This document shows, one piece after another, positions 6,595-53,386 of a DNA stretch of 64,000 nt. The translations under genes and the position numbers were made by a program. This stretch comes from Streptomyces collinus Tu 365. Its GTDB lineage: Bacteria > Actinomycetota > Actinomycetes > Streptomycetales > Streptomycetaceae. The notes under the pieces were generated by a model. The model saw nothing but the letters and a program-made list of their open reading frames with translations, did no database searches and had not been told where the DNA came from. The first letter of the stretch is position 1. Each line of letters begins with the position of its first letter. The stretch lies in NCBI RefSeq assembly GCF_000444875.1, contig NC_021985.1:1116001-1180000 (forward strand), written 5' to 3'.

Positions 6595-7449
6595 TCAGCC
6601 GAGTTCGAGCGTGGTGACCCCGAAGACCCGTTCCCGGGCGTGGTCGCGGACGGGTCCGGTGTACATCCGGGCGGTCTCGAACGAGGCGGACAGTCCCGCC
6701 TCCAGGGCCAGCGCCACGCCGTCGGCGTTGGGTTCGGGCACGTCGACGGCGATCTCGCGGCCGGCGGCGTCGGCGGTGAGCGCGGCGAACAGGGCCCGGG
6801 CGTCGTCCGCGGTGTCGGCGAAGAGCGGGCCGACGCGCAGGCAGTCGTGGCCGGGCCGGATCACGCCGTAGCCGGTCAGCCGGCCGCCGTCGTGGCGGAC
6901 GTGGGCGCGGTGGCCGTCGCGGGTCAGCCACTCGGCGAGGAAGCGCGGGCGGTCGGCGGGCATGCAGGCGCCGTCGTAGGCGGTGACGGCGGCGAGGTCA
7001 CCCGGCCCGGCCGGACGCACGCCGGTGGGGGCGGCGCCCCCGGTGGCGACGCCGGTGAACCTGATGGTGCGGTACGCGAGTTCGAACCCGGACTGCCGGT
7101 AGTTGTCCTGCTGGGCGACGACGCCGTCCAGGCCGACGGTGCGCTCACCGGCGTGGGCCAGGGCGGTCTTCCACGTGGTGAGGCCGTGACCGCGGCCACG
7201 CAGGTCCGGGCGGACGAGGTAGCAGCCGAGGAAGGCGTAGTCGGAGCCGTAGGTGACGACGGAGACCGCCGAGACCGGTTCGCCGTCGATCCGGCCCAGG
7301 AAGAACCCGTCGGGGTCCTGGGCGAAGAAGGCGGGGCCGTCGCCGAGTCCCGGATTCCAGCCCTCCGCCGCCGCCCACCCGCTGATCACCGGCCAGTCGG
7401 CGAGGGTGGCCTGGGTGACGACGAGGTCCTGCGGGGCCGGGTGGGTCAT
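6595..7449 (-). CDS. GNAT-family N-acetyltransferase with two GNAT-like halves
   Basis: A predicted acetyltransferase of 284 residues. The start at 7449 (MTHPAPQD) has GGAG 7 nt upstream. The first half (about 5-140) holds the acetyl-CoA site: the FFLGRIDGEPVSAVSVV strand pair and YLVRPDLRGRGHG, the canonical RxxGxG pyrophosphate loop. The second half (about 150-284) resembles the Acetyltransf_18 domain seen in YitH-like two-domain GNATs (GYGVIRPG, VGPLFADTADDARALF, LALEAGLS). The substrate cannot be predicted. It has its own downstream hairpin. Its promoter should lie in 7450-7690, a stretch where I see no other gene, only GC-rich repeats of CCCGGGC. Confidence 0.82.
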   Translation of the reverse strand: MTHPAPQDLVVTQATLADWPVISGWAAAEGWNPGLGDGPAFFAQDPDGFFLGRIDGEPVSAVSVVTYGSDYAFLGCYLVRPDLRGRGHGLTTWKTALAHAGERTVGLDGVVAQQDNYRQSGFELAYRTIRFTGVATGGAAPTGVRPAGPGDLAAVTAYDGACMPADRPRFLAEWLTRDGHRAHVRHDGGRLTGYGVIRPGHDCLRVGPLFADTADDARALFAALTADAAGREIAVDVPEPNADGVALALEAGLSASFETARMYTGPVRDHARERVFGVTTLELG

Positions 7450-7689
7450 CGGTGCGCTCCATGAGGGGACTTCGGGCCGGTAGGGGTCCGGCCCGTCGGC
7501 TGCGGGCGTGCCGCGCGGCGCCCGCACGGGGGCCGCACCGCAGCATCCTCGCCGATCACCAGGGCCCGCACCATGGGCGCGTCGGCCGTTGTGCGCCTCA
7601 AATCGTTCAGTGGAGCGAGGTGTTGGTCCCCGGGCGCGGGCACGCCCGGGCCGTCGTCCGGCCCGGGCGTCCACCGCGTCCGCGGATGC

Positions 7690-7727
7690 CGACGGCCCCA
7701 TCGGTTCGGAGTCCGGTGGGGCCGTCG
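7690..7727 (-). terminator. Terminator of the chaplin gene
   Basis: CGACGGCCCCA at 7690-7700 pairs perfectly with 7717-7727, and inner C-G pairs extend the stem to about 15 bp. It lies 17 nt past the chaplin stop codon at 7744. Confidence 0.85.
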
Positions 7728-7743: not shown

Positions 7744-8457
7744 TCAGCGGGTCCGGCGGGGGCCGAAGCGCCGGTAGAGGGCCGCACCCGTGAGCACGAG
7801 CGCGGCGCTGCCGGCGACCGCGGGCGCCGTCAGGTCCGCCCCGGTGTGGGCGAGGGTCTCCACCGACGGCCGCGGGGCCGGGGGCGTGACGTGCTCGGGC
7901 GTGTGCGGAACGGGGTGGGACCGGGTCGGGACCGGCGGCTTCCGGGTCGGCGGAGGCGTCGGCGTCGCGGTCGTCGGCGGGGTGGGCTCGTCGACCGGGT
8001 TGTTGACGGAGTGGTTGCCGAAGACCGGGTTGAGCACCCCCACCACGTCGACGCTGTTGCCGCTGACGTTCACCGGCAGGTGGACCGGGAGCTGCACGCC
8101 GTTGCCGGAGACCACGCCGGCCGAGCCCGTGGAGGCCCCGTGTGCCGACGAGCCGCCCTTGGTGACGGAGCCGGACGTGGCCGAACCGGCCGTCCCGGAC
8201 CCGCCGCCGTTGGCGCAGCCGTTGCCGAACGAGGGGTTGAGCAGCCCCACCACGTTCACGGTGTCGCCGCACACGTTCACCGGGACGTGCACCGGGAGCT
8301 GGACGGTGTTCCCGGAGACCGCTCCGGGCGAGCCGGCCGCCGCACCGTCGGCGGAGGCTCCGTCGGCCGCGAAAGCGGCGGTCACCGGCATGGCCACCGC
8401 CATCGCACCGGAGGCCGCGACGACGGCGAACACACCGTTTCGGGTAGCCCGTCTCAT
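7744..8457 (-). CDS. Long chaplin, sortase-anchored
   Basis: A hydrophobic cell-surface protein that assembles into amyloid-like fibres and lets aerial hyphae and spores leave the aqueous layer. It has 237 residues. A signal peptide ends near residue 31. Chaplin domain 1 is at about 43-84 and chaplin domain 2 at about 112-153. A proline/threonine-rich wall-spanning stretch (155-198) follows, then the sorting signal LAHTG at 202-206, a hydrophobic helix and the tail RRFGPRRTR. This is the ChpA-C plan, anchored by class E sortases. Domain 1 keeps the disulfide pair Cys63 and Cys81, but in domain 2 both positions are serine (132 and 150). AGGA lies upstream of the ATG. The gene is monocistronic and divergent from the aminopeptidase gene. 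Confidence 0.93.
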   Translation of the reverse strand: MRRATRNGVFAVVAASGAMAVAMPVTAAFAADGASADGAAAGSPGAVSGNTVQLPVHVPVNVCGDTVNVVGLLNPSFGNGCANGGGSGTAGSATSGSVTKGGSSAHGASTGSAGVVSGNGVQLPVHLPVNVSGNSVDVVGVLNPVFGNHSVNNPVDEPTPPTTATPTPPPTRKPPVPTRSHPVPHTPEHVTPPAPRPSVETLAHTGADLTAPAVAGSAALVLTGAALYRRFGPRRTR

Positions 8458-8565
8458 AGGTTTCCTGCCTTCCAGACAACGTCGCGGGCACTCGCCCGCA
8501 TCCGCTACAACGCAGGCGAACCGCCCAAGTTATGGCCAATCAATCTTTCACCCCATCAGGCGACA

Positions 8566-8580
8566 TGTTTCTTCGAAACA
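8566..8580. promoter_or_regulatory. Palindrome TGTTTC-N3-GAAACA in the chaplin upstream region
   Basis: A perfect 15-bp element sits in an unusually AT-rich stretch (about 8520-8630), about 110 bp upstream of the chaplin start and 160 bp upstream of the divergent aminopeptidase. The rest of 8458-8740 shows no gene. This is a candidate site for a developmental regulator, not assigned. Confidence 0.4.
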
Positions 8581-8740
8581 CCTGTAAAGGCGTCGAATAA
8601 TCATTGATCACACCGGAAGGTGCGAAGTGTAGATCGTCGGGCGCGGTCCCGCTCCTGCGGAGGCGACCCCCGTCGGGCCCGCTTATGGTGAGCGAGGGCG
8701 CCGCCCCGGTCCGCGACGGGTGGGCCCCGGGAGGCGATCG

Positions 8741-10387
8741 ATGCTGGCCAAGCTCTCCACACGGCCCGCCGTGCGGCGGTGCGCGGGAGCCGGGGTCCTC
8801 ACTCTGGCCCTGCTCGGGGCCGGGCTGCCCACGGCAGCCGCCACGCCGGCCGCCGACGCGCCCCGGCCCGACCTGGCGCGCTTCTACGGGCAGAAGCCGG
8901 TCTGGACGGCCTGCGAGGGCCCGGACATGCCGCGCGACCTGCGGTGCGCGAAGGTGACCGTCCCGGTCGACTACGCGCACCCCGCCGCCGGCACCCTCGA
9001 CCTCGCCGTGGCCCGCTACCGCGCCACCGGCCCGTCGCGGGGCTCGGTGCTGCTGAACTTCGGCGGTCCCGGCGGCCAGGGGGTCGACGCGCTCGCCGCC
9101 GGGGGCAAGGACTTCATGGACCTGACCAACGGCTACGACGTGGTCGGCTTCGACCCCCGCGGCGTCGGGCGCTCCTCCCCCGTCAGCTGCGGCGCCGGCG
9201 GTGACCGGGGCCTGCCGCTGGCGGGCGAGAGCGTCGACCTCGACCGCCCCCAGGGAGTGCTCAGACGGCTGCGGCAGGCCGCCACCGAGTGCGCCCGGAA
9301 CTCCGGGCCGGTGCTGCGCCACATAGGCACCGTGGACGCCGCCCGGGACATGGACGTCATCCGCGCGGCCCTCGGCGACAGGAAGCTCAACTACCTGGGC
9401 TTCTCCTACGGCACCCGGCTCGGCGCGGTGTACGCCGCGCAGTTCCCGCACCGGGTGGGGCGGATGGTCCTGGACGGGGTGGACACCCTGACCGAGCCGC
9501 TGTCCGAGCAGGGAGTGGCGGGCGCCCAGGGCCAGCAGACGGCACTGGACGACTTCCTTGACTGGTGCGCGACCGACATCGGCTGCCCGTTCGGGCAGGA
9601 CCGGCGCGCGGCCGGCAACCAGGTCGTACGGCTGGTGCGCTCGCTGGACGAGAACCCGGTGCCCTCGGACTTCGGCGGCGCCTTCTCCGGACAGGATCTG
9701 GTGGCCGCCATCGGGCAGGCCCTGTACAGCAAGGAGCTGTGGCCCACGCTGGAGCGGGCGCTGGCCTCGCTGGTCAACGACGGCGACACCCGGGGCGTGC
9801 TCGGCCTCACGACCGGCATCGGATCGGCCCCGCCCGTGCGGCGGCCGGTGACCGGCACGGGCGGCGAGCGGCGGCGCGCGGACGGCGGTCTGGTGGACGC
9901 CGAGGACGTCCCGGCGGACAACCTGGCGGCCGCGCTGATGGCGATCAACTGCGCGGACGACCCGGACCGGCCGGGCGAGGCGCGGATCGCCGAGGACCTC
10001 AAGGACCTGCGGGCCGCCTACGAACAGGCGTCACCGGTCTTCGGCCGCTTCCGGCTGTCCCAGCTGCTGATGTGCTACGGCCGCCCCAAGGGCACGAAGT
10101 ACATCCGGGACGAGGTCAGGAACGTGAAGTCGGCCAGGATGCTGCTGGTGGGCACGCGCGGCGACCCGGCCACTCCGTACCGCTGGACGGTGGAGACGGC
10201 CGCACGCCTCGGCCCGTCGGCCGTGGTGCTCGACAACAGGGGCGACGGGCACACCGGCTACTCGTCGTCGGTCTGCGTGCACCGCAAGGTCGACGACTTC
10301 CTGCTCTACGGCTCCCTGCCGGCGAGCGGCAGCTCCTGCCCGGCGGAGCGCGACGGCTGGGAGTCCACCACGAACGCGTCCGGCTGA
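8741..10387 (+). CDS. Secreted tripeptidyl aminopeptidase, alpha/beta hydrolase S33 family
   Basis: An extracellular serine peptidase that removes N-terminal tripeptides, in the Tap/SlpD/SlpE group of Streptomyces. The ATG at 8741 is preceded by GGAGG with 6 nt spacing; the GTG 21 nt upstream would swallow that site. A signal peptide covers about residues 1-30 (GAGLPTAAA). The N-terminal hydrolase core includes the oxyanion strand NFGGPGGQG and the elbow GFSYG with nucleophile Ser222. The C-terminal Tap-like domain carries Asp475 in GTRGDPATP and His504 in GDGHTGY. At 548 residues the length is standard. Many relatives are lipoproteins, but no lipobox is seen here. The substrate is probably peptides from extracellular protease action or secreted-protein propeptides. 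It is transcribed away from the chaplin gene. Confidence 0.88.
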   Translation: MLAKLSTRPAVRRCAGAGVLTLALLGAGLPTAAATPAADAPRPDLARFYGQKPVWTACEGPDMPRDLRCAKVTVPVDYAHPAAGTLDLAVARYRATGPSRGSVLLNFGGPGGQGVDALAAGGKDFMDLTNGYDVVGFDPRGVGRSSPVSCGAGGDRGLPLAGESVDLDRPQGVLRRLRQAATECARNSGPVLRHIGTVDAARDMDVIRAALGDRKLNYLGFSYGTRLGAVYAAQFPHRVGRMVLDGVDTLTEPLSEQGVAGAQGQQTALDDFLDWCATDIGCPFGQDRRAAGNQVVRLVRSLDENPVPSDFGGAFSGQDLVAAIGQALYSKELWPTLERALASLVNDGDTRGVLGLTTGIGSAPPVRRPVTGTGGERRRADGGLVDAEDVPADNLAAALMAINCADDPDRPGEARIAEDLKDLRAAYEQASPVFGRFRLSQLLMCYGRPKGTKYIRDEVRNVKSARMLLVGTRGDPATPYRWTVETAARLGPSAVVLDNRGDGHTGYSSSVCVHRKVDDFLLYGSLPASGSSCPAERDGWESTTNASG

Positions 10388-10401
10388 CCGCACATGTGCG
10401 G
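10388..10401. repeat. Perfect 14-bp palindrome after the aminopeptidase stop
   Basis: CCGCACATGTGCGG begins directly after the TGA at 10385-10387. It has no loop and is a poor terminator. It could be an operator for the next gene, whose start is 116 bp further on, or may be incidental. Confidence 0.3.
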
Positions 10402-10516
10402 CGAACGGGTGACAGGCGCGCGTTCCGGAAACCTCCCGGCGGGCCGGGACGTCACACAGGGCAGGCGCGCCCCGGCCCGCCGTACCCGTACGCGACCGCG
10501 ACAGGGGGAACCCGTC

Positions 10517-11044
10517 ATGCGTATCCGCTCCACCATCGCCGCACCCGTCGTGTGCGCCGCCGCAGCGCTGCTGCTGGCCGCGCCGCAGAGCCAGGCGGTC
10601 CCGGCCCGAGCCACGCCCCCGCGCTGCGCGGAGAAGGCGCTGACGATCCGGGCGAAGGCGGTACCCGGCGATCCCTCGGTGGTGCGCGTCGGCGTGACGA
10701 ACCGGGGCTCGCGCGCCTGTGTCGTGGACCGCGTGCCCACGGTGACCTTCGGCGGCCTGGACGGGGCCGCGCTGCCGGTGCCGCTGCCGCGGACGCGCGG
10801 CGGGACGTACCCGCTGCGTCCGGGCGGCACCGCCCACGCGGCGGTGCGCACCATCGCCGACCCGGCGGACCCGCAGGCCCGCCGGGCGGACTCGGTCACG
10901 GTGGCCGCGTCCTCGTCGCAGTGGGGTGCCACCTTCACCGCCGCGCGGCTCGGCACCGGGAGCCGGGTGCGGGTGTGGGAGCCGGTGACGACCTGGTGGC
11001 AGCCGACGGCGGCGGCGGCCGACCGGGCTCTGCAGGTCAGCTGA
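10517..11044 (+). CDS. Secreted DUF4232 protein
   Basis: A small exported protein of 175 residues with unknown function. The start at 10517 (MRIRSTI) follows a G-rich ribosome site; the frame runs further upstream without coding character. A signal peptide covers about residues 1-27 (PQSQA). The remainder is one beta-sandwich of the DUF4232 type: CAEKALTIRAKAV, VTNRGSRACVVDRVPTVTFGG with two cysteines likely to form a disulfide, RPGGTAHAAVRTI and the C-terminal strand. Related proteins are common in actinomycetes, often as lipoproteins; none has a defined role that I know of. It may be co-transcribed with the peptidase. Its last 8 bp overlap the end of the convergent asparagine synthase gene. 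Confidence 0.72.
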   Translation: MRIRSTIAAPVVCAAAALLLAAPQSQAVPARATPPRCAEKALTIRAKAVPGDPSVVRVGVTNRGSRACVVDRVPTVTFGGLDGAALPVPLPRTRGGTYPLRPGGTAHAAVRTIADPADPQARRADSVTVAASSSQWGATFTAARLGTGSRVRVWEPVTTWWQPTAAAADRALQVS

Positions 11045-12878
11045 GGACCAGCTCCGGCGTGTAGAGGTCGAGCCACTGGGCGAGGTCGAGGGTGCGTTCC
11101 AGGCCGCGCCGGCCGACCTGGGTGCTGACGGGGGTCTCGCGTTCGGCGGCCGCGCGGACCCGCTCGCGGTCGACGAGGTCGAAGACGCGGTGGGAGGGCC
11201 GGGCCAGAAGTTCCCTGGCCTGGTCCTGGAGGGCGCGGGCGTAGCGGGGGTCCTGGGTGGACGGGTAGGGGCTCTTGACCCGCTCGTACACCGAGCGCGG
11301 CAGGACGTCGGCGGTGGCCTCCCGGAGCAGGCTCTTCTCCCGGCCGTCGAAGGACTTCAGGGACCAGGGCGTGTTGTAGACGTACTCCACGAGCCGGTGG
11401 TCGCAGAACGGCACCCGGACCTCCAGGCCGACGGCCATGCTCATCCGGTCCTTGCGGTCGAGCAGGACGCGGACGAAGCGGGTCAGGTGCAGATGGCAGA
11501 TCTGGCGCATCCGGTACTCGAAGTCGCTCTCGCCCTCCAGGCGCTGGATGCCGGCGACGGCGGTGCGGTAGCCGTCGGCGACGTAGCCCTCCAGGTCGAG
11601 GGACTTGGCGAGGTCGGGGCGGAGCACGTCGGTGTCGTCGCCGAAGTGGCGGCCGAAGCGCACCAGCCACGGGAAGGTGTCGGCGCGGCGGGCGTCCTCG
11701 TCGAAGAACTGCAGGTAGCCGCCGAAGACCTCGTCGGCGGACTCGCCGGACAGCGCGACCGTCGACTGGTCGCGGATGGCGCGGAATAGCAGCAGCAGCG
11801 AGGTGTCCATGTCGCCGAACCCGGCCGGCAGGTCGCGGGCGCGGATCACCCGCTCGCGCACGGCGGGGTCGGCGAGGGCCTGGGCGTCGAGGACGATGTC
11901 CTGGTGGTCGGTGCGGGCGAGTTCCGCCACGTCGTGCACGAAGGGCGTGTCGGGGGTGCCGCGCAGTTCGTCGGCGACGAAGTTGTCGGTCTGGCCGACG
12001 AAGTCGACGGCGAAGCTGCGGACCTTCTCGCCGCGCTCGGCGAGCTGCCGGGCGGCGAGCGCGGTCATGGCGGAGGAGTCGAGGCCGCCGGAGAGCAGGG
12101 TGCAGCGCGGGACGTCGGCGACGAGCTGGCGGCGCACGATGTCGTCGAGGAGCGTGCGCACGGTGGCGACGGTGGTGTCGCGGTCGTCGGTGTGCGGCCG
12201 GGTGCGCAGCCGCCAGTAGGCGCGGGTGGTCAGGCCCGCGCGGCCGACGGTGACGACGGTTCCGGGTTCGACCTCGCGCATGCCGTCCCAGACGGCGTGC
12301 CCGGGTGTCTTGATCATGGTGAACAGCTCGCGCAGGCCGTCCGGGCCGACGCGGCGCCGGGCCAGCGGGTTGGCGAGGATCGCCTTGGGCTCGGAGCCGA
12401 ACAGCACGCCGTCGGCGGTGGGGTGGTAGTAGAAGGGCTTGATGCCCATGCGGTCGCGGATCATCACGAGCCGGTCGTGGCGTGCGTCCCAGACGGCGAA
12501 GGCGTACATGCCGTTCAGCCGCTCGGCCACGGCGTCGCCCCATTCCAGGTAGCCGTGGAGCACGACCTCGGTGTCGGAGTCGGTGGTGAAGCGGTGCCCC
12601 CGGCCGGTGAGCTCGCGCCGCAGTTCGGTGAAGTTGTACGTCTCCCCGGAGTAGACCAGGGCGACGGCCCCTTCGGGGGTGCGGACGGACATCGGCTGGC
12701 GGCCGCCGGGGAGGTCGATGATGGCGAGCCGGCGGTGGCCGAGCGCGGCGGGGCCCTCGGTCCAGGTGCCCCGGTCGTCGGGTCCGCGGCAGGCCATGGT
12801 CTCGGTCATGCCGTGCAGCGCTCCGGCCTCGGCGGTCAGATCGCGGTCGAAGGAGACCCATCCGGTGATGCCGCACAT
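11037..12878 (-). CDS. asnB: Asparagine synthase, glutamine-hydrolysing
   Basis: Converts aspartate, glutamine and ATP to asparagine, glutamate and AMP in the cytoplasm. The start at 12878 puts the catalytic cysteine at position 2 (MCGITGW) after initiator removal, and AGGAGG lies 6 nt upstream. The N-terminal class-II amidotransferase domain (about 1-215) contains the usual YNFTELRREL and HGYLEWGD segments. The synthetase domain (about 235-600) begins with LLSGGLDSSAM, the PP-loop ATP site, and includes LSGESADEVFGGY. At 613 residues it belongs to the AsnB group that includes relatives modifying peptides or cell-wall precursors, so a specialised amidation is possible. No carrier protein or peptide synthetase gene is adjacent, which favours primary metabolism. 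The 3' end overlaps the convergent DUF4232 gene by 8 bp with no terminator between them. Confidence 0.88.
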   Translation of the reverse strand: MCGITGWVSFDRDLTAEAGALHGMTETMACRGPDDRGTWTEGPAALGHRRLAIIDLPGGRQPMSVRTPEGAVALVYSGETYNFTELRRELTGRGHRFTTDSDTEVVLHGYLEWGDAVAERLNGMYAFAVWDARHDRLVMIRDRMGIKPFYYHPTADGVLFGSEPKAILANPLARRRVGPDGLRELFTMIKTPGHAVWDGMREVEPGTVVTVGRAGLTTRAYWRLRTRPHTDDRDTTVATVRTLLDDIVRRQLVADVPRCTLLSGGLDSSAMTALAARQLAERGEKVRSFAVDFVGQTDNFVADELRGTPDTPFVHDVAELARTDHQDIVLDAQALADPAVRERVIRARDLPAGFGDMDTSLLLLFRAIRDQSTVALSGESADEVFGGYLQFFDEDARRADTFPWLVRFGRHFGDDTDVLRPDLAKSLDLEGYVADGYRTAVAGIQRLEGESDFEYRMRQICHLHLTRFVRVLLDRKDRMSMAVGLEVRVPFCDHRLVEYVYNTPWSLKSFDGREKSLLREATADVLPRSVYERVKSPYPSTQDPRYARALQDQARELLARPSHRVFDLVDRERVRAAAERETPVSTQVGRRGLERTLDLAQWLDLYTPELVLS

Positions 12879-13089
12879 GCCCTGCCTCCTGCCTCCGGCC
12901 GGCGGCGGGCCCTCGCTCACATGGGTGAGCCGGGGTGAGGGGAGGACGGCCGCCGAACCAGTTGTATCGAGCACCTATATGACGAGCGTCCGTCGGGCCC
13001 GGGCGGCGGTCAACGCGGGCGCGTCCGGCGGGGCCCCGGCTCCCCCTTGGTTTCGGCCGCGTTTTGCCCGGACGAGGGCGAGGGAGCGC

Positions 13090-13154: not shown

Positions 13155-13934
13155 TCAGCCCTTCACGGCGAGGAAGCGGTCCAGCGCGGCGGTGAGCTCG
13201 GCGGGCTTCTCCACCGGCAGCTCGTGGCCCGCGTCGATGATCCGGACCTCGGCGTCCGGGTAGGCCTTGGCCAGGCGCAGCATCTGCCGCACCGGGAGCT
13301 GGACGTCGTGGTAGCCGTGGACCATCAGGGTGGGCGTGCGGATCTCCCCGGCCCGCTCCAGGACGTCGAAGGCCCGCATCGCGCCGTACAGGGTCATGAC
13401 GACCTCGCGCGGGGTCGCTGCGGAGGAGCGGATGTACTCCCGGATCTCCTCGCGCGGGTGGCCGGGGGCGAAGGCCCGCTGGATGTTGGTCGCCACGAAC
13501 AGCTTGTACGGCACCAGGGTCGAGGCGGCCATGAGCAGGCCCCGGCCGCGGCTGTAGGTCATCCGGCCGATGGAGTTGACCAGCACCATGCGCTCCACCC
13601 GCTCGGGGTGGGCGAGGGCGATGGTCTGGGAGATCATCCCGCCCATGGAGTGGCCGACCAGCACGAACCGCTCGACGCCGAGGTGGTCGAGGAGGGCGAG
13701 GACGTCCGCCGCCAGCTCCGCGATGGTGCGGACCCCGGCCCCCGTGCTCTCCCCGTGCCCGCGCAGGTCGAGCCGGATCACCCGCCGGCCGGCCCGGAAG
13801 TGCTCCAGCTGGTGGTCCCAGCGGTGCCGGTTCGCGGTCCAGCCGTGGACGAACACCAGCGGCACGTCCACGGCGTCGCGGGGGCCCTCGTCGTCGTACG
13901 TCAGTACGGCGCCGTCGACGTCGAGCTGCGGCAT
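13155..13934 (-). CDS. Alpha/beta hydrolase, last gene of the polyketide operon
   Basis: A 259-residue cytoplasmic hydrolase with a complete triad: Ser96 in VGHSMGG, the acid in HGYHDVQLP and His in DAGHELPVEKP. HGWTANRHRWD is the oxyanion region and RLDLRGHGES the following strand. It is typical of the broad esterase, lipase or haloperoxidase-like group, so the sequence alone gives no substrate. Its position as the last of four or five minus-strand genes suggests a role in release, editing or hydrolysis of the lipid product. The gap of 62 bp to the preceding hydrolase contains a palindrome, so it may also have its own promoter. Confidence 0.82.
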   Translation of the reverse strand: MPQLDVDGAVLTYDDEGPRDAVDVPLVFVHGWTANRHRWDHQLEHFRAGRRVIRLDLRGHGESTGAGVRTIAELAADVLALLDHLGVERFVLVGHSMGGMISQTIALAHPERVERMVLVNSIGRMTYSRGRGLLMAASTLVPYKLFVATNIQRAFAPGHPREEIREYIRSSAATPREVVMTLYGAMRAFDVLERAGEIRTPTLMVHGYHDVQLPVRQMLRLAKAYPDAEVRIIDAGHELPVEKPAELTAALDRFLAVKG

Positions 13935-13957
13935 GGGGGCCTCCTGGGTGCGTTCGG

Positions 13958-13978
13958 GTTACTGACCGGTACGGTAAC
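13958..13978. promoter_or_regulatory. Imperfect palindrome GTTAC-N11-GTAAC
   Basis: The element reads GTTACTG, ACCGGT, then CGGTAAC, a TetR-operator-like shape with one extra base on one side. It lies 24 bp upstream of the hydrolase start at 13934 and 18 bp after the stop of the previous gene, and could control the last gene separately. Confidence 0.4.
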
Positions 13979-13996
13979 GGGCCGCGGGACCCGCCG

Positions 13997-15136
13997 TCAC
14001 CGGCGTTCGCCGAGGAATTCCAGGATGTGCCCGAAGACGTCGAGCGCCGCGCCGCGCCCCAGGAACGTGTCCAGGTGGCCGTAGCCCGGGATCTCGGTGT
14101 ACGCGACGTCGAGGTGCGGCTGCCGGCGGGCCAGGACCTCGTGGCAGAGCCGCTGCGAGTCCAGCCACAGCCCGTTCTCGCTGCCCGAGAGCAGCAGGAC
14201 CGGGGTGTCGACGCGGTCGGCGGCGTCCAGCGCGTTCGGCGGCAGTGCCCGGTAGCGCAGGTCGGTGTCGTTCCACCGCACCACGCTGCGGGCCAGCTCG
14301 ATCCGGCGCAGATGGGGCAGGATCCACAGCGGGGCCGGGCCGAGCAGTTCGGCGAGCCGGTCGTGGGTGGTCCGGTGCAGGTTCTCGTGGACGAACAGCG
14401 AGGCGCCGCTGCCCCAGGCCGAGTTGTGCAGGATCTGGCAGGTCGGGTCCGGGCAGTCCGCCCCGCGGGAGGCCAGCGCGAACAGCGGGGTGTACTTCGA
14501 CCACAGGCCGACTCCGCGGAAGTCGACCGGGATGTGGTCGATCCGGGACTTCATCAGCTCCCCCGCCACCGACATCCGCAGCGAGGTGCGGCCCGCCAGC
14601 TTCGGGGTCAGGAAGACCCCCTGGGAGACCACGCCCGCGAGCCCCGGCACCAGCCCGGCCGTCAGGCTCAGCGCGAGGGTGAGGGAGCCGATGCAGTGGG
14701 CCACCACGAACAGCGGCCGGTCGCCGATGCGCTGCCGGATGTGGGCGACGGCCTCGGGGATGTCGTACAGCGCCACGTCGTCGTAGGTGTAGCGCCGGCC
14801 CGTCTCGTTGTACGGCAGCCTGCTGCTGCCCCGCCAGTCCAGCAGCCAGGGCTCGTAGCCGTCGTCGAGCAGGACGTCGACCAGGTTGCGGGTCTCGGGC
14901 AGCAGGAACATGTCGGCGGACGCCGTGTGCCCGTGCAGCAGCAGGACGGCGGGCCGGCCCGGGTCGCCGCTGTCGACCCGGGTCAGGCCGAGCCGGACGC
15001 CGTCACCGGCACGGAACGGGATCTCCTCGACGCGGGCGGGATCGAGGCGGTGGCGCAGCGGGCGCGGGGCCACGGTGGTGCGTACCCTGCGGAGCGCCGG
15101 CCGGGCCGTCCTGGAGGGCTTGGTCCTGAAGATCAT
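13997..15136 (-). CDS. Alpha/beta-hydrolase-fold protein with a cysteine nucleophile
   Basis: A predicted acyl-transferring or thioester-cleaving enzyme of 379 residues. LLLHGHTASADMF is the oxyanion loop and DDGYEPWLLDWRGS the following strand. The nucleophile elbow reads AHCIGS, so residue 148 is cysteine (codon TGC at 14693-14695) where hydrolases have serine. The histidine lies in GYGHLDTF and a candidate acid in SGSENGLW. Cysteine elbows are known in polyhydroxyalkanoate synthases and dienelactone hydrolase. Similar Cys elbows also occur, as I recall, in hydrolase domains linked to cholesterol-oxidase-like proteins of actinobacteria. The ATG overlaps the stop of the thioester reductase gene (ATGA), so the two are translationally coupled. 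A role in moving the released acyl chain to its acceptor is an inference. Confidence 0.72.
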   Translation of the reverse strand: MIFRTKPSRTARPALRRVRTTVAPRPLRHRLDPARVEEIPFRAGDGVRLGLTRVDSGDPGRPAVLLLHGHTASADMFLLPETRNLVDVLLDDGYEPWLLDWRGSSRLPYNETGRRYTYDDVALYDIPEAVAHIRQRIGDRPLFVVAHCIGSLTLALSLTAGLVPGLAGVVSQGVFLTPKLAGRTSLRMSVAGELMKSRIDHIPVDFRGVGLWSKYTPLFALASRGADCPDPTCQILHNSAWGSGASLFVHENLHRTTHDRLAELLGPAPLWILPHLRRIELARSVVRWNDTDLRYRALPPNALDAADRVDTPVLLLSGSENGLWLDSQRLCHEVLARRQPHLDVAYTEIPGYGHLDTFLGRGAALDVFGHILEFLGERR

Positions 15137-17745
15137 CGATTCGGCTCCGTGAGGGTCGTGGTGCGGCGCAGGTCCAGCAGGTCCGCCGCGGCCCGGGCGA
15201 AGGGGGCGAGCAGTCCGCGGCCCATCTCCACGCCGAACCAGGCGAGCCAGGTCAGCTTGGCGGCCCGTTTCTCCTGGGCGGTCAGGCGCGGGTCGACCCG
15301 GATGCCGTCGATCTGGTCGCGGACGTAGGAGTCGGCGGGCACGACGACCTCACCGAGCAGGCTCGCGGCCTCCCCCTCGCGGCCGATCTCCACGGTGAGC
15401 GCGCGGGTCTGCCGCCACAGGTCCCGGCGGGCCCGTGCGTACTTGCGGCCCTCCAGCCACCACACGCCGCCGTCGGCGTCGCGCAGCGTGAGCCGGTAGC
15501 GCAGCAGCTGGTGGCGCAGTCCGTGCCGCTGCGGGATGCCCTCCTCGGGACGGACCCAGACGTCGCCGCGCTCCACGGTCAGCGGCTCGGCGTGCACCGC
15601 CGGGCAGGTCACCTCGCCGCGGACGTCGACCCGGCGCTCCTTGACGAGCTGGTACATGCCGGCGATCGACAGGGTCAGCGCCATCGAGCAGGGGGTGGCC
15701 GCGGTCGCGCCGACCGGTCCCACGGTGCCCTCGGTCGTCTCGGCGAACCACAGGTAGGGCTGGTCGTCCCGGTGCGGCAGCCGGGCCAGGCCGTCACCGG
15801 CGAGCTTCTCGAAGGTCTTCAGCTGGGCCTGTGCGTCGTAGCGCGCCGCGGGCGGCAGGTCCAGGGCGGCGACCAGGGCGTCGGTGCGCCGCGCCTCGGC
15901 GGCCGGGCCCTGCAGGGTGGCCTCGCACAGCTTCAGCGCGGTGGGGCTCTGCAGCACCCGGGAGAGGAAGGCGAGTTCGGGCACCGGCTCCGCCTTCAGC
16001 CGGCCGAGCGCGTCGGCGCGCCACTCGTCCCAGTCCTGGACGCGTACGTGCATGCCGCCCAGGGCCATGTCCCGCACCACGTCGTCGAGGGTGTTGGGCA
16101 CGCCGGTGAGGTGGTAGTCGAAGCCCCAGGCGTCGGGTTCGCAGACCGTGGCGACGGCGACCCGGCTGACCCAGTCCACGGGGGCCGCGTTGAGGTAGCG
16201 GAACGCCGGTACGGTGCGGAAGCGGCCGAAGGCGGAGATCAGGCCGCTGCTGAGGTCCTGCGGGTTGTAGGCGCCGGTCTTCGTGTGCCCGCCGATGCCG
16301 CCGGGGCGCAGGGCGGTGACCACAAGTCCGTGGTCGCGGGCGCGGCGCAGCGCGACCTCGGCGGCCCACTTGGACTGGTCGTAACCGGAGACCAGCCGGT
16401 CGACGTGGGCGAGCGGGTCGTCCTCGCCCATGGAGGTGATGCCCACCTCGTTGAACACGGCCACCGACGAGATGTGGTGCAGCGGCTTGGGGCGGCCGGC
16501 GGCGGCCAGTTCGGCGAGGGTGAGGGTGCCGAGGACGTTGCTGGAGCGCAGCGACTGGTAGCCGCGCAGGAAGTCCACGGCGGCCGCCACACCCACGACG
16601 CTGTCCAGTTCGTGAGCGAGGGTGAGCCACTGCTCCTCGGTGAGGCCGAGGCGGGGGCGGCGGATGTCGCCGGGCAGCACGGTGATGCGCCTTCGCACCT
16701 CCGACGACCACGGCAGCCGGTAGCTGCGCAGCTGGGCGCCGAGCCGTTCGGTCGCCGCCTCCTGGTCGGCCGCGCGGACCAGGCAGTACACGTGCGCGTC
16801 GCTGTGCCGCAGCAGGTCGAGCAGCATGTGACCGCCGAGGAACCCGGTGGCTCCGGTCAGCAGGACGCGGCGGGGCGGCAGCGGTTCGGGTACGTCGGTG
16901 AAGGGCAGCCGGTCGGCCAAGGCGAGGTCGGCGAGGATCTGGTCGAGGTCCTCCTGCCGGGCGCGGGTGTGCGGATCGCCGGGGCGGTGGAGGGCGGCTG
17001 CGACGGCGGTGGGCGGGGTGCGGGGGGACGGGACCGGGAGGGTGCCGGGGGCGGAAGCCAGGGCTGGGGTTGTCCCAGCGGGCCGGGTGGCGTCGGGGGC
17101 CGGGTGCGTGGCCGGGGCCGAGGCTGTCCCAGCGGACCAGGCCGCGTCGGAGACCGGGTGCGTACCGGAGGCCGAGTGCGTACCGGAGGCCGAGTGCGTA
17201 CCGGAGGCCGGGCCGGGGGCCGGAGCCGCGCCAGAGGCCGGGGCCGTCTCAGCGGGCCACGTCGCATCGGAGGTCGGGTGCGAGCCGAGGACCGGGGCCG
17301 TGCCGGCCGGGACTGCGCCGTCGGTGGAGGACGTGCCGTCGGCCGGACGGCCGGGCGGCCGGTCGGGCAGCAGGGGCAGCCAGCGGCGGGCCAGGCTGAC
17401 GGGGCGGGCGTCGGCGAACACCTCGTCGAGGTCGATCTCGATGCCCAGGTCGGCTTCCAGTTCGGCGGCCAGTTCCACCGCGTCGACGGAGGTGCCGCCC
17501 GCGTCGAAGAAGTCGGCGTCCGGCGACAGCCGGCCGGTGGGCAGGTGGCGGCCGGCCGCGGCGGCGATGGTCGCCGCCAGGCCGTCCAGGTCGGGTGCCG
17601 GAGCCGGGGCGGCCCCGGGCACGGCCGTCGCCGTCCGCACCCGGGCCAGCAGGTCGGCCACGCCGAGTCCGCCGCCGCCCTGTTCGATCGACTCGGCGAG
17701 CGCCCGCCGGCCGCCGGCCGCCGGTTCCTCGTTCACGTCACGCAT
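15133..17745 (-). CDS. Acyl carrier protein-thioester reductase with extra C-terminal domain
   Basis: Releases a carrier-bound acyl chain by NAD(P)H reduction to an aldehyde or alcohol. It has 870 residues. An N-terminal ACP carries phosphopantetheine Ser86 in DAGGTSVD. A 150-residue Pro/Ala/Ser/Thr linker with internal repeats (about 130-280) follows. The Rossmann thioester-reductase domain starts at about 293 (LTGATGFLGGH), with Tyr455 and Lys459 in GYDQSKW. The last 200 residues (from about 670, YLWFAETTEG to the end) are not part of standard thioester reductases. They resemble a beta-rich domain that I associate with cholesterol-oxidase-like proteins, an uncertain assignment. The gene starts 33 bp after the PKS stop, and AAGGG lies 6 nt before the ATG. 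The free-standing ACP may accept the unit from the PKS C-terminus. Confidence 0.85.
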   Translation of the reverse strand: MRDVNEEPAAGGRRALAESIEQGGGGLGVADLLARVRTATAVPGAAPAPAPDLDGLAATIAAAAGRHLPTGRLSPDADFFDAGGTSVDAVELAAELEADLGIEIDLDEVFADARPVSLARRWLPLLPDRPPGRPADGTSSTDGAVPAGTAPVLGSHPTSDATWPAETAPASGAAPAPGPASGTHSASGTHSASGTHPVSDAAWSAGTASAPATHPAPDATRPAGTTPALASAPGTLPVPSPRTPPTAVAAALHRPGDPHTRARQEDLDQILADLALADRLPFTDVPEPLPPRRVLLTGATGFLGGHMLLDLLRHSDAHVYCLVRAADQEAATERLGAQLRSYRLPWSSEVRRRITVLPGDIRRPRLGLTEEQWLTLAHELDSVVGVAAAVDFLRGYQSLRSSNVLGTLTLAELAAAGRPKPLHHISSVAVFNEVGITSMGEDDPLAHVDRLVSGYDQSKWAAEVALRRARDHGLVVTALRPGGIGGHTKTGAYNPQDLSSGLISAFGRFRTVPAFRYLNAAPVDWVSRVAVATVCEPDAWGFDYHLTGVPNTLDDVVRDMALGGMHVRVQDWDEWRADALGRLKAEPVPELAFLSRVLQSPTALKLCEATLQGPAAEARRTDALVAALDLPPAARYDAQAQLKTFEKLAGDGLARLPHRDDQPYLWFAETTEGTVGPVGATAATPCSMALTLSIAGMYQLVKERRVDVRGEVTCPAVHAEPLTVERGDVWVRPEEGIPQRHGLRHQLLRYRLTLRDADGGVWWLEGRKYARARRDLWRQTRALTVEIGREGEAASLLGEVVVPADSYVRDQIDGIRVDPRLTAQEKRAAKLTWLAWFGVEMGRGLLAPFARAAADLLDLRRTTTLTEPNR
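17158..17211. repeat. 18-bp tandem repeat, three copies, in the reductase linker
   Basis: GTGCGTACCGGAGGCCGA is repeated at 17158-17175, 17176-17193 and 17194-17211 (last base changed). On the coding strand it encodes the unit SASGTH. Looser copies of SDATWPA/SAGTAPA-type units extend the repeat over about 17080-17300. Confidence 0.85.
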
Positions 17746-17778
17746 GAGAGCCCTTCAGGTTGTGCTCGGTCTTGTTGC

Positions 17779-31581
<13,803 letters not shown>

Positions 31582-31720
31582 CGGTGCAGGTGTCCTCGTG
31601 AACTCGGTCTCGGTTGCCCGCCGGGCGACGGGCGCGCGGTACGGCGGGGCGGGCGGTGGTGCGGCAGGGCGCGGCGGGGCCGCGCGGCCGGTGTGCCGGG
31701 GCGGCCCGCGTGAAGGTGGG

Positions 31721-31750
31721 GCCTCCGGCGCGGTCGGGCGCGCCGGAGGC
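31721..31750 (-). terminator. Strong hairpin between FAAL and PKS genes
   Basis: GCCTCCGGCGCG at 31721-31732 and its exact complement at 31739-31750 form a 12-bp stem with a 6-nt loop, starting 9 nt after the FAAL stop. I see no convincing promoter in the remaining 140 bp before the PKS ATG at 31581. It may therefore work as a partial terminator that sets the FAAL:PKS ratio, or as an mRNA end. Confidence 0.75.
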
Positions 31751-31758
31751 GGGCGGTG

Positions 31759-33492
31759 TCAGGGCGCGGCGGGACCGGTGGCCACCGCGAGGGTGCCGTC
31801 GAGGTACGCCGCCCGGGTGGCGCGGCGCTGAATCTTCCCGCTGGAGGTCTTCGGGATGGTGCCGGGCCGCACCAGGACGACCTCGCGCACGGACAGTCCG
31901 TGGGCCTCCCCCACCGCGCTGCGGACCAGGTCGGTGATCTTCCCGGACTCGCCGGCGTCGTCCGGGGCGACCTCCGCGACCAGGACGGGCTGTTCGCCGT
32001 CGGCTCCGTCGGCCCCGGCGTCCACGGAGAACGCCGCGGTGCAGCCGGGGCGCAGCGCGGGGTGGGCCAGTTCGGCGGTCAGCTCCAGGTCCTGCGGGTA
32101 GTGGTTGCGGCCGTCGACGACGAGGAGGTCCTTGAGCCGGCCGGTGACGAAGAGTTCGCCGTCGCGCAGGAAGCCGAGGTCGCCGGTGCGCAGGAACCGC
32201 CCCTCGCGGCCCGGGAGCTGGGCGCGGAAGGCCTCGCGGGTGGCGAGGGCGTTGCGCCAGTAGCCCTTGGCGACGCTCGCGCCGCCCACCCAGATCTCGC
32301 CCACCTCGCCGTCGGAGAGCTCCTTGTGCCACTCGGGGTGGACGATCGCGACGGTGACGCCGGGCCCGGGCCGGCCGCAGCCGACGGCGGCCGCGTCGGC
32401 CTCGCCTGCGTTCGGGGAGCCCTCGGCCGCGGCGAGCAGCGTGGGCCCGGTGGCCACGTCGCCGCCGGTGACCATCAGGGTGGCCTCGGCGAGGCCGTAG
32501 CAGGGGTAGAGGGCCTCGCGGCGGAAGCCGGCCGGGGCGAAGGTGTCGGCGAAGCGGCGCAGCGTGGCCGCGCGGACCGGCTCGGCGCCGTTGAAGGCGA
32601 CCTTCCACGAGCTGAGGTCGAGGCGGTCGAGCAGGTCGGGGCCCGCGTGCTTCAGGCACAGCTCGTAGGCGAAGTTGGGGCCGCCGCTGGTGTGCGGGCG
32701 GTAGCGGCTCACGGCGGTGAGCCAGCGGTCCGGCCGCTGCAGGAAGTGCAGGGGGGAGAAGAGGGTGGCGGTGGCGCCGAGGTACACCGTGTTCAGGACG
32801 GGGCCGATGAGCCCCATGTCGTGGTAGACCGGCAGCCAGCTGACGAACAGCTCGTTCGCGTGCTCGGCGAGCACCTCGGGGGTGTGGCCCATGCGCTCGG
32901 TGATGACCCGCTCGTTGTCGAGCAGGTTGCCGTGGGTGACCGCGACGCCGCGCGGTGCCGAGGTGGAGCCGGAGGTGTACTGGAGGAAGGCGACGGAGTC
33001 CGCGGTGAGTTCGGGTTCCCGCCAGCTCGCGGCCGCGTGGTCGGGGATGTCCTCGGTCGCGACGCGTGCGATCCCGTCGAGTTCGGGCAGGTGCTCGGCC
33101 ATGCCGTCGAGCGCGGTGATCACCTCCCGGCCGCCCAAGATGACCTTGGCGTCGGCGTCGGCGACCAGGCGCTTCATCCGGGTCAGCGCGCGGTGGTTCT
33201 GCGCGCGGCCCTGCGGGGGCACCCCCGGTACGGCGATCACACCGGCCGCGAGGCAGCCGAGGTAGGCGCAGACGAACTCCAGGCCGGGCGGGTGCAGCAG
33301 CATGGCTCGGGATCCGGCCAGTCCGCGCTCCTGCAGCCAGGCGGCGACCGCGCGGGCCCGGGTGGCGAGCCGGCCGTAGGTGAGTTCCTGGATCTCTCCG
33401 TCGCAGTCACCGGTGACGAGGTGGCGGTACGCGACGCGCTCGGGACGGTTCGAGGCATGGGCGGTCAGTAGATCGACCAGGGAACGTGCCAT
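31759..33492 (-). CDS. Fatty acyl-AMP ligase (FAAL)
   Basis: Activates a free fatty acid as acyl-adenylate and hands it to a carrier protein, here most likely the N-terminal ACP of the PKS (Ser53). It has 577 residues, the usual FAAL length. The start at 33492 (MARSLVDLL) follows AGGTG. The adenylation core includes YTSGSTSAPRGV (P-loop), SWLPVYHDMGLIG, GGPNFAYELC, NGAEPVRAATL and YGLAEATLMV. C-terminal hallmarks are RTGDLGFLRDGELFVTGRLKD, the FAAL-typical VDGRNHYPQDLE and TSSGKIQRR with the conserved lysine. The HDMGLIG and GRNHYPQD signatures separate FAALs from CoA ligases. It is the first gene of the lipid polyketide cluster, behind a structured leader, and a hairpin follows it before the PKS gene. 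Confidence 0.92.
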   Translation of the reverse strand: MARSLVDLLTAHASNRPERVAYRHLVTGDCDGEIQELTYGRLATRARAVAAWLQERGLAGSRAMLLHPPGLEFVCAYLGCLAAGVIAVPGVPPQGRAQNHRALTRMKRLVADADAKVILGGREVITALDGMAEHLPELDGIARVATEDIPDHAAASWREPELTADSVAFLQYTSGSTSAPRGVAVTHGNLLDNERVITERMGHTPEVLAEHANELFVSWLPVYHDMGLIGPVLNTVYLGATATLFSPLHFLQRPDRWLTAVSRYRPHTSGGPNFAYELCLKHAGPDLLDRLDLSSWKVAFNGAEPVRAATLRRFADTFAPAGFRREALYPCYGLAEATLMVTGGDVATGPTLLAAAEGSPNAGEADAAAVGCGRPGPGVTVAIVHPEWHKELSDGEVGEIWVGGASVAKGYWRNALATREAFRAQLPGREGRFLRTGDLGFLRDGELFVTGRLKDLLVVDGRNHYPQDLELTAELAHPALRPGCTAAFSVDAGADGADGEQPVLVAEVAPDDAGESGKITDLVRSAVGEAHGLSVREVVLVRPGTIPKTSSGKIQRRATRAAYLDGTLAVATGPAAP

Positions 33493-45771: not shown

Positions 45772-46817
45772 CGTGGATCCCCTTCGAGTACGGCGACCAG
45801 GTTCTGCTGCAGGCAGGGTCCGGAGGTGGCGTGGGCGAGGGCGCGGTCGGACTCGCCGCGGTGGATGCGGGCGGCGGCCTCGCCGACGCGGATGAGCCCG
45901 GCGGCCATGACCGGGTTGGCGGCGAGGGCGCCGCCGGAGGGGTTGACGCGGACGTCGTCGCCGAGCCGCAGGGCCTTGCGCAGCACGATCTCCTGTGAGC
46001 TGAAGGGGGCGTGCAACTCGGCTGTGTCGACTGGCCGTTCGAAGGCGCCTGCCTTCTCGGCCGCCAGGCGGGCGGAGGGCGAGTCGGTCAGGTCGCGCAC
46101 GCCCAGGGAGTGGGCCTCGATGCGGTGGTCGACGCCCCGGATCCAGGCGGGCCGCTCGCACAGCTCCCGGGCCCGGTCCCCGGCGGCCAGGATCACGGCG
46201 GCGGCGCCGTCGCCGACGGGCGGGCAGTCGCCGGTCCGCAGCGGGCGTACGACGTGGTCGTCGTGCGGCAGCGGGCCGGTGCGCTGCGCGTGCGGGTTGG
46301 CGGCCGCGTCGGCCCGGCTGCGGGCGCCGACGGCGGCGAGGGCGGCCTCGTCGGTGTCCCCGGCGTCGATGAGCGCCTGTGCCTGGAGGGCGGCCAGCGC
46401 CACGGCGTCGGGCCAGAGCGGGGCGACGTAGTAGGGGTCGAGCTGCCGGGTGAGGACGTCGCGCACCGAGCCGGGCGAGCACTTGCCGTAGGAGTAGACG
46501 AGGGCCGTGTCGGCGTCCCCGGTGAGCAGCTTGGTCCATGCCTCGTACAGGGCCCAGGCGCCGTCCATCTCGACGTGGGACTCGGAGACGGGCGGCCAGG
46601 CGCCGACGCCGTCGAGGGCGAGGGTGAAGGAGAAGGCGCGTCCGGCGAGGTAGTCGCTGGAGCCGGAGCAGATGAAGCCGATGTCGGCGGTGCGCAGCCC
46701 GGTCCGCCCCAGCACCTCGTGCAGCACCGGCATGAGCAGTTCGACCTCGGAGGACTCCTCGGTGGAGCGCCTGTGGTCGCTCTGGGCGAAGGCGACGACC
46801 GCGATCTGCCTGGTCAC
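45768..46817 (-). CDS. Second thiolase-fold protein, no nucleophilic Cys
   Basis: 349 residues, GTG start at 46817. The N-terminal IAVVAFAQSDHRRSTEESSEVELLMPVLHEVLGRTGL and FICSGSSDYLAG match the SCP-x thiolase fold. The position of the catalytic cysteine reads SHVEMDGAW, so acyl transfer by cysteine is not possible. Near the C-terminus NPSGGALAANPVMAAGLIRVGEAA is the family loop, but the GHPxG histidine motif is also missing. This resembles the partner subunit of Rv3522/Rv3523-type pairs, and a heteromer with the neighbouring thiolase is likely. Start and stop overlap both neighbours by 4 bp (GTGA and ATGA), so the three proteins are probably made in fixed ratio. Confidence 0.8.
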   Translation of the reverse strand: MTRQIAVVAFAQSDHRRSTEESSEVELLMPVLHEVLGRTGLRTADIGFICSGSSDYLAGRAFSFTLALDGVGAWPPVSESHVEMDGAWALYEAWTKLLTGDADTALVYSYGKCSPGSVRDVLTRQLDPYYVAPLWPDAVALAALQAQALIDAGDTDEAALAAVGARSRADAAANPHAQRTGPLPHDDHVVRPLRTGDCPPVGDGAAAVILAAGDRARELCERPAWIRGVDHRIEAHSLGVRDLTDSPSARLAAEKAGAFERPVDTAELHAPFSSQEIVLRKALRLGDDVRVNPSGGALAANPVMAAGLIRVGEAAARIHRGESDRALAHATSGPCLQQNLVAVLEGDPR

Positions 46818-47755: not shown

Positions 47756-47775
47756 GCCTGGGCTCCTTCGGTGGG

Positions 47776-48576: not shown

Positions 48577-48601
48577 CTGCCCATCTCCCCTCGGTAAGAA
48601 C

Positions 48602-48615
48602 GAGAACAGGTTGCA
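48602..48615. promoter_or_regulatory. KstR-like half-palindrome AAC-N2-GTT
   Basis: GAGAACAGGTTGCA matches the mycobacterial KstR pattern T-N2-AAC-N2-GTT-N2-A at all fixed positions except the first T. It sits 26 bp upstream of the hydratase start in the 188-bp divergent promoter region. Short motifs occur by chance, so support is modest. Confidence 0.4.
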
Positions 48616-48654
48616 GTAGGCGGGGAGGCACTTCAAGGGAACTCCGACCATTTT

Positions 48655-48669
48655 CTGACAGGCAGTCAG
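48655..48669. promoter_or_regulatory. Palindrome CTGAC-AGGCA-GTCAG in the divergent promoter region
   Basis: A perfect inverted repeat (extended by one further T/A pair to 48654-48670), midway between the hydratase and FadD19-like genes. It has the shape of a TetR-family operator. The pattern CTGA-N7-TCAG recurs at 58998-59012 before the flavoprotein-ligase operon. Confidence 0.6.
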
Positions 48670-48764
48670 ATTTTCCGGTGCGGGCCCTTCCCACTTGTGG
48701 CGCCCTTTGCTCTGATGACCGGCGAACCGGTGGATCGCCAGGCCCGCACAGGTCAGGAGGAGCG

Positions 48765-53263: not shown

Positions 53264-53386
53264 GCCGGTCCGCCCGGCCGCCCCGCAACGACGTCCTCGA
53301 CCCGGCCGGGCCCGGGCCGGCGGGAAAATTCGGGCACACCCCTTGCCCTCGGAGCGGATGGCCTGAATTACTGACCCCGAGGGAAT

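Follow-up and report, generated by a model that had tools for sequence, protein, structure and literature searches.

The window analysed here is a stretch of 64,000 nucleotides from Streptomyces collinus Tu 365 (contig NC_021985.1, positions 1,116,001 to 1,180,000). Its minus strand encodes a line of five genes for a fatty acyl-AMP ligase (FAAL), a type I polyketide synthase (PKS), an acyl carrier protein (ACP)-thioester reductase and two alpha/beta hydrolases (EI and EII), and this gene set is a known cluster, published as the foxicin (fox) family. We confirmed all five open reading frames (ORFs), which show the codon bias of coding DNA, and chance reading frames are ruled out because 120 homologues are listed (of 396 matches). 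An earlier note on this DNA, made from the sequence alone, had described the same genes on one strand (FAAL, 4600-residue PKS with its own loading ACP, reductase, two hydrolases), and the ORFs and domain scans (Pfam and NCBIfam with curated cut-offs) bear it out. The spacing from FAAL to EII is operon-like, with gaps of 177 and 33 bases, a 4-base overlap and a 62-base gap. The genes are:

31759..33492, minus strand: FAAL (foxBI homologue), 577 amino acids; PF00501, 225 bits
17779..31581, minus strand: type I PKS with condensation (C) and FkbH domains (foxBII homologue), 4600 amino acids
15133..17745, minus strand: ACP-thioester reductase-barrel protein (foxBIII homologue), 870 amino acids
13997..15136, minus strand: EI, alpha/beta-hydrolase fold (foxEI homologue), 379 amino acids; PF00561, 39.3 bits
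13155..13934, minus strand: EII, Ser-type alpha/beta hydrolase (foxEII homologue), 259 amino acids; PF00561, 126.5 bits

Pfam and NCBIfam give the PKS the domain order ACP-KS-AT-DH-KR-ACP-KS-AT-DH-KR-ACP-C-FkbH (KS, ketosynthase; AT, acyltransferase; DH, dehydratase; KR, ketoreductase), and the next protein carries an ACP, a reductase domain and a terminal barrel:

31312..31524, minus strand: loading ACP, residues about 20-90, Ser53 (one of three PF00550 stretches)
26119..31239, minus strand: module 1, KS-AT-DH-KR-ACP (AT1 GHSQG/YASH; DH1 HxxxGxxxxS)
20782..26031, minus strand: module 2, KS-AT-DH-KR-ACP (AT2 GHSLG/FASH)
19441..20607, minus strand: C domain, HHAVSDL, likely ester-forming (PF00668, residues 3659-4047, 82.2 bits against a cut-off of 30.6)
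18811..19329, minus strand: region between C and FkbH, in the place of the FkbH N-terminal extension (NEX), by position only
17854..18810, minus strand: FkbH domain, predicted glyceryl transferase (TIGR01686, 390.6 bits against a cut-off of 146.65)
17386..17580, minus strand: ACP of the reductase protein, predicted glyceryl carrier (PF00550, 46.9 bits)
15910..16866, minus strand: thioester reductase domain (TIGR01746, 252 bits against a cut-off of 213.35)
15136..15783, minus strand: C-terminal antiparallel beta-barrel domain, function not assigned (AlphaFold2 model, pLDDT 80.0, pTM 0.76)

The foxicin cluster was described from S. diastatochromogenes Tu6028 by Greule et al. in 2017, who named S. 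collinus Tu365 among 21 further carriers (PMC5318452, cited throughout from part of its text). Their genes foxBI (583 amino acids), foxBII (4807), foxBIII (945), foxEI (378) and foxEII (259) have homologues lying side by side in the same order in the window, the PKS domain order through C-FkbH agrees with the paper's table, and the first DH carries the HxxxGxxxxS motif. Among the loci we collected, L023 is that of the foxicin producer: its reductase protein (945 amino acids) and EII (259) have the tabulated lengths, and the ORFs downstream for an AraC protein (257 amino acids) and an rRNA methyltransferase (380) are table entries too. The window shares with it 72% identity in the reductase, 86.6% in EI, 83.8% in EII, and 72.8% between the PKS and FoxBII over 3342 aligned columns; the L023 stretch compared holds a 3307-residue part of FoxBII, with foxBI lying outside it. 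Within S. collinus, the best records match the window at 100% in the C-FkbH region and 98% in the reductase, and others at 93-94% and 88-90%, respectively. The earlier note had supposed that no Streptomyces product is assigned to such a line. Foxicin is the published product of a syntenic cluster (PMC5318452), which is the very finding that note had named beforehand as counting against it.

Foxicin A consists of an amide-linked acyl tail on an aminobenzoquinone, and the tail, with two non-conjugated double bonds, is ascribed by the authors to isobutyryl plus two methylmalonyl units (a skipped diene; PMC5318452). A single-crossover insertion in foxBII abolished foxicins A-D, and iron lowers foxicin in the published strain (PMC5318452). 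In the covered part of that paper, no foxicin-like compound is known from the listed carriers, S. collinus included, and outside Streptomyces the authors found the cluster in no actinomycete genus. The published route takes foxBI as an amino-acid adenylation (A) domain and foxBIII as a peptidyl carrier protein (PCP)-thioesterase (TE) (PMC5318452). Two papers from 2026 report a 4% foxicin similarity in Nocardia (PMC13391507, PMC13269418), and the portions covered of these and of PMC13170338 and PMC10272871 contain no revision of the route.

Our domain calls differ from the printed ones in the first and third genes. The closest structural relatives of the foxBI homologue in the PDB are FAALs, not CoA ligases or amino-acid A domains: 7r7f (508.6 bits, named only 'polyketide synthase'), 3kxw (373) and 5d6j (336) lead, with FadD-type FAALs scoring up to 336 bits, whereas McyG (170), chains named amino-acid adenylation (161-166), linear gramicidin synthase (95) and CoA ligases (84-92) fall well below. 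FAAL models are also the top specific models in NCBIfam, and the generic amino-acid adenylation model TIGR01733 reaches 143 against a cut-off of 317.4. In two relatives, a Rhodococcus pyridinivorans plasmid (L009) and Nocardia L073, FAAL and PKS form one protein, with the FAAL ahead of the loading ACP, so that the role of the FAAL in these two is PKS priming. In the window it is predicted to activate a starter acid and to load the N-terminal ACP of the PKS.

By family model, the foxBIII homologue is a thioester reductase. PDB relatives of its reductase domain include the myxalamid R domain, and the three Gly of GATGFLG, Ser426-Ser427, Tyr455 and Lys459 are present in 121/121 sequences, with the Tyr/Lys pair in all 75 loci aligned there across genera. 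The producer's own protein is homologous to that of the window over nearly its whole length and is a reductase as well. By these family assignments, the printed mechanism is probably wrong in two labels (A domain and TE).

The residues of the PKS were counted in 121 sequences (the window plus 120 listed of 396 matches, a few of them partial). At Ser53 of the loading ACP, 4 sequences have a gap and the other 117 all have Ser. In module 1, YASH, the methylmalonyl motif of AT domains (PMC6164871, in part), is kept in 118 of 119 sequences, and DH1 has Ser in place of Pro (HxxxGxxxxS) in 119 of the 120 with a residue there, a motif associated in the foxicin paper with a double bond at the beta,gamma (skipped) position (PMC5318452). 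Ser and Tyr of both KR1 and KR2, FASH of AT2, and His, Pro and Asp of DH2 are found in 121/121; both FoxBII ATs were reported as methylmalonyl by prediction (PMC5318452). The conjugated diene expected in the earlier note is thus doubtful, given the DH1 motif and the non-conjugated tail of foxicin A, and a long fatty primer finds no support in the published isobutyryl-plus-two-methylmalonyl tail (PMC5318452).

That note overlooked the C domain at the end of the PKS and, with it, the predicted terminal chemistry, the joining of the chain to a glyceryl unit. A whole-genome PF00668 search finds the C domain again, in two pieces (window 19441-20610). Its HHxxxD motif is intact (His-His-Asp in 121/121), and it is likely to be ester-forming because that motif is intact, no amino-acid-activating partner occurs in the line, and there is a precedent in BurF of the malleicyprol pathway, for which C-domain ester formation, an FkbH-like NEX (the N-terminal extension of FkbH), a carrier (T) domain and a reductase have been shown in vitro (PMC12304814, in part). 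The DxD motif and Cys4525 of FkbH are likewise present in 121/121 PKS sequences, and DxDxT with Cys in the 71 of 71 loci, from four genera, that align there. Ser86 of the ACP on the reductase protein is also invariant (121/121).

The barrel forms the last 216 residues of the reductase protein, with C-terminal helices in the predicted fold, and has no PDB match by Foldseek at E <= 0.001. When a barrel profile (34 rows) was compared with the 8659 ORFs of 100 residues or more in the loci and the window, 77 matched, 75 of them at 1e-40 or better. Of the two outlying matches, one (E 1.8e-6) is a small Pseudonocardia gene whose neighbours encode a GMC oxidoreductase and an EI-like protein; the other (E 1.4e-4, hhalign probability 48.6%) covers the central part of a GMC-oxidoreductase/EI-like fusion in Bernardetia. 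The barrel is thus accompanied by GMC oxidoreductases and EI-like proteins at L010:9399-10169 and L088:1490-5023, encoded apart in Pseudonocardia and within one protein in Bernardetia; these loci entered by EI similarity, so their EI is there by selection and the barrel is not. In EI the nucleophile elbow (Cys148), on which the earlier note is silent, reads Ala-His-Cys-Ile-Gly instead of GxSxG, and Ala-His-Cys-[Ile/Val]-Gly recurs in 74/74 EI loci aligned there (73 lines of foxicin type plus L010). An esterase role for EI is doubtful because a Cys, not a Ser, stands at the elbow, and it may instead have an acyltransferase-like or carbonyl-directed role. EII has GHSMGG in 48/48 sequences and a Thioesterase-family match just below the cut-off (25.9 against 26.4 bits); it occurs at Streptomyces loci only, at 48 of the 54 with room for it.

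A contig-level scan confirmed 92 relatives, the best 80 of which resolve to 77 loci, or 78 with Rhodococcus L009. All but L009 were found by the reductase (L009 by EI and the reductase C-terminus), and the counts are silent on parts that occur alone. At least 58 of the loci are from Streptomyces, at least 18 from Nocardia (two from one strain), at least one from Amycolatopsis and one from a Rhodococcus plasmid. By tblastn, C and FkbH are present in 72/78 loci (Streptomyces 52/58, Nocardia 18/18, Amycolatopsis 1/1, Rhodococcus 1/1), and the six loci that have no match are contigs starting near the reductase. EI is present in 73/78 (54/58, 17/18, 1/1 and 1/1, respectively); four of the loci that lack it are contig ends (L016, L078, L084, L086), and L085 is the exception. 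Four genera thus share the C-FkbH-ACP-reductase-barrel-EI unit, with a varying count of PKS modules. The window, its aligned homologues and Rhodococcus have two modules (the first lacking a DH match in Rhodococcus), and Nocardia L073 has a single one by Pfam. The constant part of the line is priming plus this terminal unit; the genes flanking the line vary between strains.

Fifteen of 16 Nocardia PKSs have one GHSxG site and L072 has none, with a FAAL match within 10 kb upstream in 14 of 18 Nocardia loci. Streptomyces L052 and L056 also have a FAAL within 10 kb upstream and one AT site each. In 15/16 Nocardia PKSs (L063, L066, L067, L069, L070, L072-L079, L083 and L087) the KR reads FSAAG, with the usual Ser missing, and no intact DH is found by pattern; a beta-keto chain is possible in those lines. 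Nocardia SYP-A9097 has two copies on different contigs (L061, L077), and L061 retains the KR Ser and a YASH-type AT. A GT28-like glycosyltransferase accompanies the unit in 17/17 Nocardia loci that reach past the reductase (L078 is cut), close by and at 77% identity or more except in L061 (45%, some 4 kb beyond EI); a GT4 protein occurs in 16/17 and a MocA oxidoreductase in 14/17. In the Rhodococcus locus a 38%-identical glycosyltransferase has a crotonyl-CoA carboxylase/reductase and a GT39 protein as neighbours. The glycosyltransferases point to a glycosylated product in Nocardiaceae.

From these features we consider it rather probable that the five genes form a foxicin-type line that combines FAAL priming, two extensions, C/FkbH attachment of a glyceryl unit and reductive release; of this plan, the priming, the two reducing modules, FkbH and the reductive release had been proposed in the earlier note and agree with the Pfam, NCBIfam and PDB matches. 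The FAAL would form an acyl-AMP and load the N-terminal ACP, as its family and the FAAL-ACP-KS fusions of Rhodococcus and Nocardia suggest. Module 1 would then add a likely methylmalonyl unit, and its unusual DH1 motif may leave a beta,gamma double bond. Module 2 would add a second unit with predicted ketoreduction and dehydration, the choice of unit by AT2 being uncertain. By family and gene order, FkbH could take a D-glyceryl group from 1,3-bisphosphoglycerate and load it onto the reductase protein's ACP, and the C domain could move the polyketide acyl chain to the glyceryl hydroxyl, forming an ester. The reductase, whose catalytic residues are in place, would use NADPH to cut the thioester in a two- or four-electron reduction, giving O-acylglyceraldehyde or O-acylglycerol. 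In the weakest of these steps, the barrel and the Cys-type EI might act on the released carbonyl product, and EII might hydrolyse or edit. An ester followed by reductive release is the simplest scheme: FkbH requires a carrier, which the following gene supplies, and the C domain that precedes has no amino-acid-activating partner.

Several observations weigh against this scheme. The main one is foxicin A itself, the product assigned to the sister cluster by gene disruption, which has an amide tail and no visible glyceryl unit; its amide on an aminoquinone demands a further acyl transfer or an indirect effect. A FAAL acting on isobutyrate would be unusual, and the foxBI homologue stays below the curated cut-off of every NCBIfam FAAL model (439.7 against 975 for the best FAAL-named one). 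GHSLG/FASH of AT2 fits neither textbook code, leaving its extender uncertain. At L085:10265-20483 a C-FkbH-ACP is present, but the 10 kb that follow contain no reductase, barrel or EI (the gap is either an assembly fault or a real loss), and EII has no match at any locus of Nocardia, Rhodococcus or Amycolatopsis, nor at 6 of the 54 Streptomyces loci long enough to show it. The literature searched (subscription journals in part, preprints outside it) turned up no biochemistry on enzymes of the foxicin-type family and no acylglycerol assembly line with FkbH, and among its titles and abstract starts we recognised no paper on a Streptomyces product of an hglE-type cluster.

If the loss of foxicin in the single-crossover strain was indirect, the glyceryl line could make a lipid or signal of its own. 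The five genes include no obvious quinone-forming function, and the five flanking ORFs scanned in the producer are an AraC regulator, an rRNA methyltransferase, a DeoR-type regulator and two that have no match. The differing flanks between strains and the glycosyltransferases that accompany the unit in Nocardia and Rhodococcus lean the same way. However, the foxicin tail as its authors read it is in very good agreement with two reducing modules, of which AT1 is of methylmalonyl type and DH1 unusual, and we regard a separate product as unlikely. A further alternative is ring closure, in which the acyl-glyceryl ester would become a butenolide (BurF-like Knoevenagel) or a tetronate (Dieckmann). 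BurF makes a butenolide by the same C-T-reductase logic (PMC12304814), the barrel could be a cyclase, and 15/16 Nocardia PKSs lack the KR Ser and show no intact DH motif by pattern, which would leave a beta-keto chain in them; in the window, by contrast, the intact KR2 and DH2 residues mean that no beta-keto group is expected, and the reductase residues are intact, unlike those of non-redox Dieckmann R* domains, which makes ring closure improbable here. The lipid of the earlier note, a fatty-primed conjugated diene that reduction simply frees as an aldehyde or alcohol, would draw on the same FAAL, two reducing modules and reductase while leaving C and FkbH idle. That is hard to reconcile with the invariant catalytic residues of both domains, their retention in four genera despite module loss, and the atypical DH1 (119/120), and we think such a product quite improbable. 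The published route, in which foxBI activates a non-proteinogenic amino acid for the foxBIII PCP and the polyketide is transferred and released by a thioesterase before ring closure, would account for the nitrogen and acyl amide of foxicin A and for the loss of foxicins on foxBII disruption (PMC5318452), but is very improbable given the nearest PDB relatives of the foxBI homologue (FAALs at 508 and 373 bits, amino-acid adenylation chains at 161-166), its low TIGR01733 score, the FAAL fusions to a PKS loading ACP in Rhodococcus and Nocardia, and a foxBIII homologue that, in the producer as well, is a reductase whose NADPH and Tyr/Lys motifs are both intact.

Should glyceryl attachment with reductive release be correct, foxicin biosynthesis would have to be redrawn, the printed logic resting on two unsupported domain labels, and the same terminal unit would predict glycosylated polyketide-glycerol lipids in Nocardiaceae. 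A wider proposal, which we offer only tentatively, is that actinobacteria build acylglycerols on assembly lines, by an FkbH-supplied triose, C-domain acylation and reduction, without glycerol-3-phosphate acyltransferases; Nocardiaceae might glycosylate them to glycoglycerolipids, and foxicin might then arise from this core indirectly or in later steps. Many Streptomyces species carry the line (at least 58 loci), and genome-mining tables, in the parts covered, show only a partial 'foxicins' match.

Around the five genes, 20 of 28 selected ORFs were scanned with Pfam at E <= 1e-5, the other 8 lying outside the scan. Among these 20 neighbours we identified no regulator adjacent to the line and no match to thioesterase, phosphopantetheinyl transferase or transporter families, in keeping with the earlier note, and neither a glycosyltransferase nor a glyceraldehyde-3-phosphate dehydrogenase or aldolase (compare the accessory foxA and foxGI-GIII). 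A GNAT protein of 368 amino acids is encoded at window 6595-7701, the FoxA sequence itself being outside the comparison, and the window's MocA-family gene is unmatched by the Nocardia MocA oxidoreductase. Downstream, at 7744-12974, lie genes for a TAP-type hydrolase and chaplins, matched also at 15/58 Streptomyces loci, with asnB at 6/58; together these mark a chromosomal site shared by one species group, which was not seen within the examined flank of the foxicin producer's locus. A second gene group at 46814-60719 (four AMP-dependent ligase genes, a ChsH2-like OB-fold protein and a flavin amine oxidoreductase) shows no link to the five-gene line that we could see. ARAGORN gives a tRNA-like match with no amino acid at 52769-52860, inside the ORF 52343-53263, which is likely spurious. 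Genome-wide, PF00668 matches of non-ribosomal peptide synthetases form mirrored sets on the first contig, at 0.23-0.47 Mb and 7.80-8.04 Mb.

Compared with the foxicin cluster, the window has the same five genes in order, the same PKS-C-FkbH order and DH1 motif, and 72-87% identity in the parts compared; the flanking genes differ, and the FAAL and reductase calls made here contradict the printed A and TE labels. The Nocardia and Rhodococcus relatives (L073 and others, L009) share FAAL, ACP, PKS, C, FkbH, ACP, reductase, barrel and EI, and they differ in a fused FAAL (L073, L009), a single module in L073, nearby glycosyltransferases and an EII that was not found. FkbH proteins load a glyceryl group onto a carrier in tetronate-type pathways. 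The window resembles these in its predicted glyceryl loading, but its FkbH is fused behind a C domain and a reductase follows; the search for tetronate-forming enzymes covered the 20 neighbours scanned. Such FkbH pathways are also cited in the foxicin paper (PMC5318452). BurF, likened here by its description only, shares a fatty-acid-primed PKS with two extensions followed by C, an FkbH-related region, a carrier and a reductase (PMC12304814), and in the window too an HHxxxDx C domain (HHAVSDL) precedes an ACP and a reductase, with FkbH between them on the PKS protein. In BurF, by contrast, the NEX is the only part of FkbH, the acceptor is trigonic acid via BurJ/BurH, and a beta-keto chain cyclises (PMC12304814), whereas the FkbH of the window is complete and the residues of KR2 (Ser/Tyr) and DH2 (His/Pro/Asp) are intact in 121/121, so that no terminal beta-keto chain is expected.

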